Below are positions 23,517 to 26,690 of a stretch of DNA of 34,597 nt, piece by piece. A program made the translations under genes and the position numbers. Source of the DNA: an uncultured Bacilli bacterium (GTDB lineage Bacteria; Bacillota_I; Bacilli_A; RF39; UBA660); assembly GCA_944358405.1 (NCBI GenBank), contig CALVQX010000061.1, forward strand, positions 1 through 34,597. Reading direction: 5' to 3'. Under the pieces are notes generated by a model. It did not search any database. It saw only the letters and a list, made by a program, of their open reading frames with translations, and was not told the origin of the DNA. The number at the start of each line of letters is the position of its first letter. The first letter of the stretch is position 1.

Positions 23517-23567
23517 GGATTTTTTATTTTTTTTCGAATAATTAAATAGGAGGTGAGAGAATTATTC

Positions 23568-25649
23568 ATGAAAGTTGTATTGCAGGATGGTGCAAAAGAC
23601 TGCGGTGTTTGTTGCTTGCTTTCTGTAATTCGATATTATGGAGGAGATGTATCGAAAGAATATTTGAGGGAACTGACAAATACTACAAGATTTGGTGTCT
23701 CTGCTTATCAGTTGATTTGTGCAGCAGAAAAATTAGGATTTGATGCTAGTGGTATGAAGGGAGACTTGTCCAAAATCGAAAAAAATAACTTACCTTGTCT
23801 TTCTCATATCATTATCCGTAAAAGTTATCAGCACTTTGTAACAATTTATGATGTTTCTGAAAAGTTAGATAGAGTTTTAGTGATGGATCCTGAACGAGGA
23901 CGGAGAGTTTTTTCTTTTTCTGAATTTCGAATGTTATCTAGTGGTTACTTTATTTTTTTGCATCCTAGGAAGACTTTACCTGTTATGATCCCAAAGAAGA
24001 TTCTTCGCCATACTTTGTTTCTTTTTTTGAAAGAGCAAAGATTGCTACTATTACTTCTTTCCTTATTAACTTTTTTATATTTTGTATTTCAAATCATTAC
24101 GGCTTTCCATTTTAAATACTTGTTAGAATTTTCTATTTCTTATCAACTTTCTAGTCCACTTTTCTTTCTTAGTTGCTATCTTTTTGTTTTCTATCTGTTA
24201 AAAGAAATATCTAATATGTTGCGAAATCTGGTATTAATGAAATGGACTTGTCTATTGGATGCTAAACTTACATTCTGCACTTATCAGCAAATTCTCTTAC
24301 TTCCTTATTTTTATTATCGAAATCGAACTTCTGGAGAAGTGATTTCTAGACTCAAAGATTTAAATGTTGTAAAAACTTTTTTAGCACAATTTTTTACTTC
24401 TTTTTTTAGTGATTTTTTAGGATTTTTTTTATTTGGCTTTTTCCTTTTTCTTTTAAATCCTACGATTACTTTGTGGGCTTTTCTACTTTTTGCTTTTTTT
24501 ATAGGAATTCATTTTTTATTTAAAAAGTACAAGATGAAATATTGTGTTAAGGTTGCTAATCAAGAAGATAAAGTAAATTCTTATTTAGTAGAGTCTTTAG
24601 CAAATGTAGATACGCTGAAAGGTGGGCACATCGAAAAAAGATTGAGGGATGTGTTTATATTAAAATATCAAAAGTTATTGGAAATTTCTTATATACAAAC
24701 TCTTTTAAATGAGCTTTCTTTCTTTTTACAGAAACTAAGTTATGCTTGTTTTTTTACTTTTTTTCTTGGTTTAGGTAGTTTCTTAGTAATACAAAAAGAG
24801 TTTTCTTTAGGTGATTTTATTGTGTATCAGAGTGTTTTTCAATATTTTTTTAATTGTTTTCAAAGACTATTAGAAATTGGAAATAGTTATCCATCTTTTT
24901 TGACTTCTTTAGAACGGGTAGAAGATTTATTTACGATTCCTGCGGAAAATTTTTCTGGAAGTAGTAATTATTTTTTTGTTTCGCTTGAAGGAGAGATTCA
25001 TATTTCTGATTTTTCTTATCAATTAGGAAGAGTTTTGTTGTTTGATCATCTGGAGTTACATATTACATCGGGGCAAAAGATTTTAATCATGGGAGAGTCG
25101 GGAAGTGGAAAGAGCACTTTGATGAAGATGCTAATGCGTTATATTGAAGTCCCTTTTGGTAAGATTCAAATTCATAATATTGATATTAATCATTATCATT
25201 TGGAAGTTTTGAGAAATCAAATTACTTATGTTACTACTTCTGAGTTTTTATTTACAGAGACTATTTATTTTAATATTACTTTGAATCGAGAAGTAGATGA
25301 AGAGAAATTTCAAGAGGTAGTTCGTTTGACAAAGGTGGATGATTTTGTTAGAAATGATACTTTGCAATACCAAAGGCTTGTTGAGGAAAATGGCTTTAAT
25401 TTTAGTAATGGGGAAAAGCAAAGAATTATTTTAGCTAGAGCCTTATTAAGAGAGAGTAGTATTTATATTTTTGATGAGGCATTTAGTCAAATTGATCCAG
25501 AAAAAGAGTCTCAAATTATGAAGAATGTTTTTGCGTATTTAGAGGGAAAAACAGTGATTGTAGTAAGTCATCGGCTTTTACCATTTTCGTTATTTGATCA
25601 AACTTTAAGATTGGAAGGTGGGAAGTTTTGTTGTGTTGAAGAATTATGA
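23568..25649 (+). CDS. Peptidase-containing ABC transporter for bacteriocin export
   Basis: The start is ATG 23568; the GTG at 23553 falls within the AGGAGGTGA site. The 693-residue protein combines three parts. A C39 cysteine peptidase (1-130) has QDGAKDCGVCC with Cys12, HFVTIYD with His89 and Asp107. A six-helix ABC membrane domain (about 145-430) follows. The ATPase has Walker A GESGSGKST (509-517), a degenerate signature FSNGEKQR, and Walker B IYIFDEAF. Such proteins cleave double-glycine leaders and export the mature peptide. Two fitting precursor peptides lie downstream at 26045 and 26185, so the substrate is likely these. Confidence 0.94.
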   Translation: MKVVLQDGAKDCGVCCLLSVIRYYGGDVSKEYLRELTNTTRFGVSAYQLICAAEKLGFDASGMKGDLSKIEKNNLPCLSHIIIRKSYQHFVTIYDVSEKLDRVLVMDPERGRRVFSFSEFRMLSSGYFIFLHPRKTLPVMIPKKILRHTLFLFLKEQRLLLLLLSLLTFLYFVFQIITAFHFKYLLEFSISYQLSSPLFFLSCYLFVFYLLKEISNMLRNLVLMKWTCLLDAKLTFCTYQQILLLPYFYYRNRTSGEVISRLKDLNVVKTFLAQFFTSFFSDFLGFFLFGFFLFLLNPTITLWAFLLFAFFIGIHFLFKKYKMKYCVKVANQEDKVNSYLVESLANVDTLKGGHIEKRLRDVFILKYQKLLEISYIQTLLNELSFFLQKLSYACFFTFFLGLGSFLVIQKEFSLGDFIVYQSVFQYFFNCFQRLLEIGNSYPSFLTSLERVEDLFTIPAENFSGSSNYFFVSLEGEIHISDFSYQLGRVLLFDHLELHITSGQKILIMGESGSGKSTLMKMLMRYIEVPFGKIQIHNIDINHYHLEVLRNQITYVTTSEFLFTETIYFNITLNREVDEEKFQEVVRLTKVDDFVRNDTLQYQRLVEENGFNFSNGEKQRIILARALLRESSIYIFDEAFSQIDPEKESQIMKNVFAYLEGKTVIVVSHRLLPFSLFDQTLRLEGGKFCCVEEL

Positions 25650-26040
25650 GAAACATATTTTCCTTTTGAGTAGTTGTCTTCTTTTCTTTTTATTGGTTAT
25701 TTTATTTTTCATTTATACGATGCAAACTAAAATTTATTTTTATAGTAAGTTTATTGGTACTGTTTGGTCTAAGGATTTTATAGAGGTTGTAGTTACAGAA
25801 GAGCAATTGAAGACTTTATATCAAAATCGGTTTTTATATTTTGATAATCAAAAGAAATCATTTCAAGTGAAGTCGGTGATTAGGGAGGTGATGGTTCGAA
25901 AAGATCAAAAGTATCATGATGTTTATCTTGCTTGTTCTTTAGGTGAGGATGTGAAAGAAAAAGACATGGTAGAGTTTGTTTTAAAAAAAGAAAAGCGGGG
26001 GTTATTTGAAATATTTAGGGTGATATGGGATGGTGATTAG
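25633..26040 (+). CDS. Single-span accessory protein of the bacteriocin locus
   Basis: This frame overlaps the end of the exporter gene. I favour GTG 25633 as start, about 11 bases after GGAAGGTGGG; GTG 25618 and TTG 25636 are alternatives. The roughly 135-residue product has one membrane helix near its N-terminus (FLLSSCLLFFLLVILFFIYT) and an external part of short strands (FIGTVWSKDFIEVVVTEEQL, VKSVIREVMV). This resembles short secretion-accessory (HlyD-like) or immunity proteins found beside class II bacteriocin exporters. No sequence motif decides between those roles. It is followed after four bases by the first precursor gene. Confidence 0.7.
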   Translation: MLKNYEKHIFLLSSCLLFFLLVILFFIYTMQTKIYFYSKFIGTVWSKDFIEVVVTEEQLKTLYQNRFLYFDNQKKSFQVKSVIREVMVRKDQKYHDVYLACSLGEDVKEKDMVEFVLKKEKRGLFEIFRVIWDGD

Positions 26041-26044
26041 AACA

Positions 26045-26188
26045 ATGAAATTAGTGAATGATAGCGATTTAGAGCAGGTGATCGGTGGTAGCAATGCAGC
26101 TTGGATTGGTGTTGCTGTTGCGGCAGTTTTTATTTTTTTATCTGGAGTAATTGAAGGGTTTACGAATCCAGGGAGGTGTAAAAGTTGA
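26045..26188 (+). CDS. Bacteriocin precursor 1, double-glycine leader
   Basis: This 47-codon gene follows GGTGAT at about 8 bases. The product begins MKLVNDSDLEQVIGG, a classic double-glycine leader (hydrophobic residues at -4, -7, -12 style and Gly-Gly at 14-15), and the mature part is SNAAWIGVAVAAVFIFLSGV with IEGFTNPGRCKS. The mature peptide is small, hydrophobic and ends in a NPGRC-like tail seen in class II bacteriocins. It sits right after a C39 exporter and its accessory gene. The gene overlaps the start of precursor 2 (TTGA). Function as antimicrobial or signal is inference. Confidence 0.84.
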   Translation: MKLVNDSDLEQVIGGSNAAWIGVAVAAVFIFLSGVIEGFTNPGRCKS

Positions 26189-26358
26189 AGAAAGTTTCTG
26201 ATTTAGGTGAGTTGGAAATGATTTGTGGAGGCAGTAGTCTTAGTGGAACTCTTTTAAATGCACTTACGAACATTATTGAGTTGTTACAAGATGCAGGAAG
26301 GAGTTTTGGAGCAGCACTTCGGCGTATTAGTGAGAATAATTTATGTTCTTTAGAATAG
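26185..26358 (+). CDS. Bacteriocin precursor 2, double-glycine leader
   Basis: This 57-codon gene starts with TTG 26185 after GGGAGG (8 bases), its start overlapping the stop of precursor 1. The leader reads MKKVSDLGELEMICGG and the mature part SSLSGTLLNALTNIIELLQD followed by AGRSFGAALRRISENNLCSLE. It is amphipathic and helical, unlike the very hydrophobic first peptide. Two adjacent different precursors with one exporter are typical of two-peptide (class IIb) bacteriocins. The rare TTG start may lower its output or be offset by translational coupling. Confidence 0.82.
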   Translation: MKKVSDLGELEMICGGSSLSGTLLNALTNIIELLQDAGRSFGAALRRISENNLCSLE

Positions 26359-26370
26359 TATTTATTAAGT

Positions 26371-26428
26371 AAATTTTTCATTTTTGTATTAAACTAAAGG
26401 TATTTTTCGAAAAAAAATGAAAAAATTG
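26371..26428 (+). terminator. Possible bacteriocin-operon terminator
   Basis: AAATTTTTCATTTTT and AAAAAATGAAAAAATT form a long A/T-only inverted repeat between the last precursor and the rpsU promoter. Lack of G/C makes it a weak call. Confidence 0.35.
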
Positions 26429-26457
26429 TTGAAAAACAGGTAATCTTCTGTTATAAT
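26429..26457 (+). promoter_or_regulatory. Promoter of rpsU
   Basis: TTGAAA (26429-26434) and TATAAT (26452-26457) are 17 bases apart, 33 bases before the rpsU ATG. Confidence 0.85.
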
Positions 26458-26489: not shown

Positions 26490-26690
26490 ATGGCAACTAA
26501 AGTAACTGTTAGAGGTAATTTGGATCAAGCTCTAAGAAAGTTCAAGCAAAAAGTGGCAAGAGACGGTGTCCCTTCAGAATGGAAAAAAAGAGAAGCTTAC
26601 GATAAACCAGGAGTTAGAAGAAGAGCAGCTAAGAAAGAAGGAATTAAAAATTCTCGAAAGAGAAATCGTGACAATAATAAAGATTATTAA
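26490..26690 (+). CDS. rpsU: 30S ribosomal protein S21
   Basis: The start is ATG 26490, six bases after AAGGGAGGG; the tandem ATG at 26487 is too close to that site. The 66-residue basic protein begins MATKVTVRGNLDQALRKFKQ and ends in a Lys/Arg-rich tail, as in bacterial S21, a late-assembled small-subunit protein involved in initiation. In Bacillus it lies next to yqeY; here an unknown gene and IS remnants lie between them. It has its own promoter and terminator. Confidence 0.95.
   Translation: MATKVTVRGNLDQALRKFKQKVARDGVPSEWKKREAYDKPGVRRRAAKKEGIKNSRKRNRDNNKDY

Follow-up and report, generated by a model that had tools for sequence, protein, structure and literature searches.

A C39 exporter with two double-glycine leader peptides at a conserved locus of uncultured RF39 Bacilli: a possible class-IIb-like secreted complex

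In a contig of an uncultured Bacilli bacterium (CALVQX010000061.1 of assembly GCA_944358405.1, 34,597 nucleotides, called the window below), two very small overlapping genes follow an ABC exporter with a C39 peptidase domain, and a sequence-only reading took them for the likely precursors of a two-peptide (class IIb) bacteriocin. Are these two frames genes at all, and if so, what would a secreted peptide pair do for the bacterium that makes it? The window belongs to a 1.3 Mb draft genome in 72 contigs and to a family of uncultured, mostly gut-dwelling bacteria. From the names of the records that carry the second peptide, we infer that this family of Bacilli is GTDB RF39/UBA660; named records among them are Candidatus Onthousia and Candidatus Faecisoma, and others are draft genomes from rumen, rabbit, deer and digester. 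RF39 are common gut bacteria.

The peptide genes and their conservation

The locus comprises the following features.

23568..25649, forward strand: C39-peptidase ABC exporter (PCAT type), recognized by its Pfam domains; alternative GTG start at 23553
25633..26040, forward strand: export accessory, modelled as one beta-barrel domain between an N-terminal membrane span and a C-terminal helix
26045..26188, forward strand: P1 precursor, 47 aa; 15-aa leader MKLVNDSDLEQVIGG ending VIGG; 32-aa mature part, hydrophobic, with GxxxG..NPxxC
26185..26358, forward strand: P2 precursor, 57 aa; TTG start; 16-aa leader MKKVSDLGELEMICGG ending MICGG
26343..26372, forward strand: ORF3 stub, MFFRIVFIK and a stop codon; 9 codons, where relatives begin ORF3
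26490..26690, forward strand: rpsU (ribosomal protein S21; Pfam Ribosomal_S21, 3.8e-14), a conserved downstream neighbor

The two small genes of 47 and 57 codons lie where they were first placed, downstream of the exporter and a one-span gene, with the leaders first assigned to them; the TTG start of P2 at 26185 overlaps the stop of P1 by 4 nt, and ribosome binding sites precede both starts (GGGATGG before P1 and AGGGAGGTG before the TTG of P2). The mature peptides are, as had been noted, of unlike nature. P1 is membrane-helix-like, with a maximal hydropathy over 19 residues of 2.43, and the 41-aa mature part of P2 is an amphipathic helix with the pattern GxxxG....RR......C, modelled as a single helix over residues 18-49 (mean pLDDT 70, and 83-88 in the second half of the helix). 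The sequence details of the earlier reading were thus accurate throughout, and its sole correction concerns the role of the gene at 25633. Downstream, a promoter-like site of rpsU lies at 26429-26457, with 11 of 12 matches.

The profiles of P1 and P2 took their seeds from about 37 of the 193 genomes of the family, so that most matches are independent of them. The P1 profile matches 177 and the P2 profile 178 of the 193 genomes, each in 137 of 148 genera, and the pair is present in about 92% of the sampled family genomes. The order exporter-(accessory)-P1-P2-(ORF3)-rpsU-yqeY predominates among 132 distinct loci: an accessory-sized frame separates exporter and P1 in 91, rpsU follows P2 on the same strand in 95 at a median distance of 206 nt (some of the others are short contigs), and P1 and P2 stand side by side, with a median stop-to-stop distance of 172 nt (131 loci). 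The succession of exporter, accessory and two precursors, whose conservation had been proposed as a check, is therefore kept in most of these loci. The double glycine is conserved at 99-100% in the leaders of both peptides (about 130 loci). In the mature parts, every named residue of the P1 motif GxxxG...PxxC is found at 98-100% (129 sequences), and GxxxG, RR and the C-terminal Cys of P2 at 95-100% (131 sequences). By a strict pattern GxxxG occurs in 127 of 131 P1 peptides (129 when small-residue variants are counted) and in 127 of 132 P2 peptides, and exactly one Cys is present in the mature part of 117 of 131 and 125 of 132, respectively. The pattern search for P2 used a 7-sequence subset, the full P2 alignment being too diverse.

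The earlier reading had named two signs that would speak against it, broken frames beside a retained exporter and a lack of coding selection. Relatives with the exporter hardly ever lack either frame, and selection at the coding level is strong: P1 has a pooled pN/pS of 0.31 and P2 one of 0.24, compared with 0.32 in the exporter and 0.18 in rpsU, and both peptides are under purifying selection. P1 and P2 are real genes, far beyond chance, as is evident from the profile matches in 177 and 178 of the 193 family genomes, the adjacency and the purifying selection; that they are chance open frames next to an exporter is vanishingly improbable, their short length being all that speaks for it, whereas homologs occur in over 170 genomes, the motifs are invariant and pN/pS lies at 0.24-0.31, and conservation and selection together rule it out.

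The distribution of the pair follows that of the exporter and of the lineage. A Pfam C39 protein was found in 182 of the 193 family genomes, all but one of which have just one match, and the 11 genomes that have none all lack both P1 and P2 (Fisher 5e-15 for P2 and 2e-14 for P1). Across 346 genomes of the class, profile matches that extend past the first 42 columns belong exclusively to this family, where 43 of 46 sampled members have them; 22 matches outside the family stay within the leader and the residues immediately behind it. Neither a full-length match of P1 or P2 elsewhere in Bacilli nor copies in plasmids, phages or viral contigs were found. For P1, P2 and the exporter, pairwise distances show Spearman correlations of 0.43-0.61 with the rpsU and yqeY distances (none of 300 permutations as high), comparable to the correlation of rpsU with yqeY (0.59). 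These distances point to vertical inheritance, and the P1/P2 locus is core, single-copy and vertically inherited. A few family genomes (G166 and G275) have two or three P2-profile matches each and may carry duplicates or additional GG peptides; the leader of P1 accounts for some of the weak second matches.

The exporter, its accessory and the mycoplasma locus

The exporter, the only C39 protein in the window genome, has the Pfam domains Peptidase_C39 (1.5e-29), ABC_membrane (1.4e-21) and ABC_tran (4.4e-25), and its active-site residues Q6, C12, H89 and D107 are present in 100% of 85 aligned relatives. From the intact C39 exporter and the GG leaders, it is predicted to cut both leaders after the double glycine and to export P1 and P2. 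Upstream of it, positions 23390-23512 fold better than shuffled sequences (z -2.85) and end in a terminator-like hairpin with a T run; this putative RNA element matches no Rfam family and shows no convincing conservation.

The gene at 25633 had been put forward as an immunity candidate, and this claim was not upheld: it is an export accessory. Its homologs in mycoplasmas accompany the exporter at loci without such peptides, and its AlphaFold2 model (mean pLDDT 93.9) consists of a membrane helix and a beta-barrel. Membrane-fusion proteins are among its best structural matches, with Z of 6-8 for the barrel, but unrelated barrels score equally well; HlyD of HlyB/D aligns over 126 residues (Z 5.9), no hit of the fold search had an E below 0.001, and the 135-residue model has no lipoyl or coiled-coil domain. 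An HlyD-like assignment is plausible, not proven.

The link to mycoplasmas is one of gene order and of the accessory. The Mbov_0121/MAG1140 pair of mycoplasmas (NF045998 and NF045999) is homologous to that in the window and likewise consists of an adjacent exporter and one-span accessory, and at four mycoplasma loci the order is exporter-accessory-ybeY-cdd-era. Downstream of rpsU the window has genes that we take, from their translations, to be ybeY (30612), dgkA (31111), cdd (31503), era (31904) and recO (32948). Against these two models the window proteins score below cut-off (exporter 281.3 bits, cut-off 500; accessory 13.7, cut-off 35), and the MAG1140 profile matches the homologous gene beside P1 in several relatives, also below cut-off (E 5e-6 to 2e-4). 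From the shared order and the accessory match, the exporter-accessory pair is likely older than the split from mycoplasmas. Because an exporter tree does not recover RF39 as one clade (support 0.36), the case for this common origin is made by gene order and the accessory match.

Unlike the window, the mycoplasma loci examined are without P1 and P2; other kinds of GG-leader peptide occur elsewhere in mycoplasma genomes. Their homology with P2 was considered and rejected, the mature parts giving non-significant matches (E 0.08 and 0.97). Such peptides, of about 80-130 aa, are encoded in four small single-contig genomes that were read as mycoplasmas (TGA = Trp), at L205 3539-3931, L206 3827-4111, L215 3637-3915 and L207 3488-3754, all on the reverse strand. 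Several share a G.[SN]..[FL]..D-like stretch, one weakly resembles the MPN313 family, and all are sited away from the C39 exporter, of which they are likely unrecognized substrates. In two other Bacilli families, a GG-leader peptide of 58-59 aa ending LPGG[FY][KR]F[TE]W lies between valS-like and radC-like genes with no adjoining exporter (L208 3782-3958, forward strand; L216 3470-3649, reverse strand).

ORF3, a third component in most relatives

In 80 of the 132 loci, P2 is followed by ORF3, a leaderless one-span protein of 46-62 residues whose start overlaps the end of P2. Its profile matches that of P2 over 44 columns with a probability of 93.6% (E 2e-7) and does not match that of P1 (0.1%). 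GxxxG is present in 79-80 of 80 sequences, and the invariant GxxxG and Arg of ORF3 coincide with those of P2. As judged from this profile match and the coinciding residues, ORF3 is a membrane-anchored relative of the mature part of P2.

The window lacks ORF3, as do up to 52 of the 132 loci that retain P1 and P2, some of these being contig ends. In the window, a frame of nine codons overlapping P2 aligns at the junction with two relatives whose ORF3 begins MSFKVIWSK (L011) and MPFKVIFTK (L013). No ORF3 was found elsewhere in the draft genome, where the profile finds fragments and the C-terminus of P2 alone. By this alignment ORF3 appears to have been lost by decay in the window, leaving the nine-codon stub, which taken alone is weak evidence of it. 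In three relatives (L168, L019 and L166) a short ORF3 of 34-36 residues directly follows P2, with GxxxG kept but the Arg-containing tail lost, which suggests that it is GxxxG on which selection acts.

The literature on class IIb bacteriocins describes both GxxxG and small immunity proteins with one span, and CbnZ, an immunity protein of 42 residues, offers a comparison for ORF3 (PMC6957408). ORF3 is a better candidate for immunity than the gene at 25633. However, where ORF3 is missing and the peptides persist, protection must lie elsewhere or not be needed, and nothing speaks more strongly against a self-lethal toxin than this repeated loss with P1 and P2 kept.

What the exported pair may do

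The part of the class IIb proposal that stood is the exported pair of GG-leader peptides with GxxxG in both; the assignment of immunity to the gene at 25633 did not. Like the known systems (lactococcin G/enterocin 1071, carnobacteriocin XY, plantaricin), the window has a pair of neighboring GG-leader peptides whose mature parts both contain GxxxG (motif as defined in PMC6957408) and a dedicated C39 exporter with an accessory gene in the cluster; in most relatives ORF3, a small one-span protein, adjoins the peptides as in those systems. It differs in that the mature peptides match no known member and have one invariant C-terminal Cys each, that the pair is core and single-copy at a housekeeping locus, that the candidate immunity gene is a homolog of one of the peptides, P2, and that no regulatory genes are seen beside the cluster. 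No modification enzymes were found among the neighboring reading frames. No known family covers the mature parts of P1 and P2, in agreement with the first reading, which recognized no homolog with a known name and took the peptides as possibly new: leaderless P1 and P2 have no NCBIfam bacteriocin match, no family model was found to cover P2 or ORF3, and known class IIb families match via the leader alone. At E up to 0.1, 30 of 35 P1 members match TIGR03949 (lactobin A/cerein 7B, NCBIfam), and two of three relatives checked singly exceed its cut-off of 21.5 bits, the scores of 23.6-32.0 in some relatives coming largely from the leader; a P1 stripped of its leader fails to match. For the window P1, no match to this model was listed at E up to 1 or 0.1, its match to the lactococcin G-beta model is weak (21.5 of 37 bits), and P2 does not match TIGR03949 except weakly in some members. 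A literature search found no paper on RF39 bacteriocins.

We consider it on balance probable that the locus is a family-wide core system secreting a class-IIb-like, membrane-active two-peptide complex. The joint loss of pair and exporter, the fixed order, the invariant motifs, the membrane-like P1 and helical amphipathic P2, the homology of ORF3 to P2, the intact catalytic residues and the distances that follow those of rpsU and yqeY support this reading, as does the lack of modification enzymes among the neighboring frames. The C39 exporter, aided by the one-span accessory, would cleave P1 and P2 after GG and export both. P1, as a transmembrane-like hydrophobic helix, and P2, as an amphipathic helix, would pair via the GxxxG that is invariant in both, perhaps with a disulfide between the single invariant Cys of each to lock them, and on the class IIb model the complex would insert into a membrane and permeabilize it. 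In most relatives ORF3, sited in the producer membrane, may compete for P1 and thus protect the cell, as its homology to P2 would suggest. Given its near-universal presence in a single, vertically inherited copy, the system presumably renders the lineage a constitutive service, most plausibly by opening neighbor cells, both to compete with them and to scavenge lipids and building blocks. RF39 have reduced genomes with many auxotrophies and lack fatty-acid synthesis and many other biosyntheses (PMC6784871), which makes the opening of neighbors for building blocks an attractive idea. Near-universal conservation and purifying selection, unlike known bacteriocins, count against this reading, as do the loci that keep the peptides without ORF3 and the leader-only matches to known class IIb families.

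The main rival is a non-killing role on the producer, which we judge somewhat unlikely. The exported pair would then be no weapon and would act on the producer or its kin, for instance as a constitutive part of the envelope, as an aid to lipid uptake or adhesion, or as a signal between cells, with ORF3 as a membrane partner or receptor-like anchor pairing with P1. Core status, a single copy, vertical inheritance and purifying selection fit such a role, as do the repeated loss of ORF3 with the peptides retained, the lack of mobile copies among those searched and an exporter and accessory common to mycoplasmas at the same genomic block. However, GG leaders, GxxxG in both peptides and a hydrophobic-amphipathic pair follow the logic of membrane-permeabilizing two-peptide bacteriocins, and no histidine kinase or regulator gene is seen beside the cluster in the window.

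An ordinary class IIb bacteriocin, that is, a cluster for strain- or species-level competition novel in sequence alone, is improbable. All sequence features named by the sequence-only reading are indeed present, and the P1 of some relatives reaches the cut-off that NCBI sets for lactobin A/cerein 7B. However, this family match is one of the leader alone, the cluster sits at a single conserved housekeeping locus in about 92% of the family genomes, the searches of plasmids, phages and viral contigs found no copies, and the peptides show little sequence diversification relative to the exporter. Bacteriocins are normally patchy, and a single-copy, near-universal, vertical distribution is atypical for them and speaks strongly against this reading. 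In lactobacilli, characterized bacteriocins are limited to 16 species (PMC5471241).

Tentatively, and with somewhat less than even confidence, the secreted pair may be read as an obligate core two-peptide complex with an anchored mimic of P2 and a housekeeping purpose, its exporter-accessory module coming from a common ancestor with mycoplasmas. Nutrient capture from neighbors, an envelope function or kin signalling, not occasional competition, would be such purposes. The system would work like a class IIb pair and be new in its family-wide core status, its P2-like third component and its ancient exporter module. A secreted pair in about 92% of the sampled genomes would be among the few universal means by which RF39 act on their surroundings, and it would make the question of how they acquire lipids and nutrients, and perhaps of why they have resisted cultivation, directly testable. 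The system also hints at the role of the conserved but unexplained C39 exporter of mycoplasmas, and ORF3 would be a clean case of a protein that apparently mimics, in membrane-anchored form, one of the two partners in such a complex.

Far upstream in the window, a T-box leader precedes a small protein gene, presumably YbaK-like, and then an asparaginyl-tRNA synthetase-like gene (296-1240 and 1340-2722); the pairing of an editing-type domain with such a synthetase gene is unusual.
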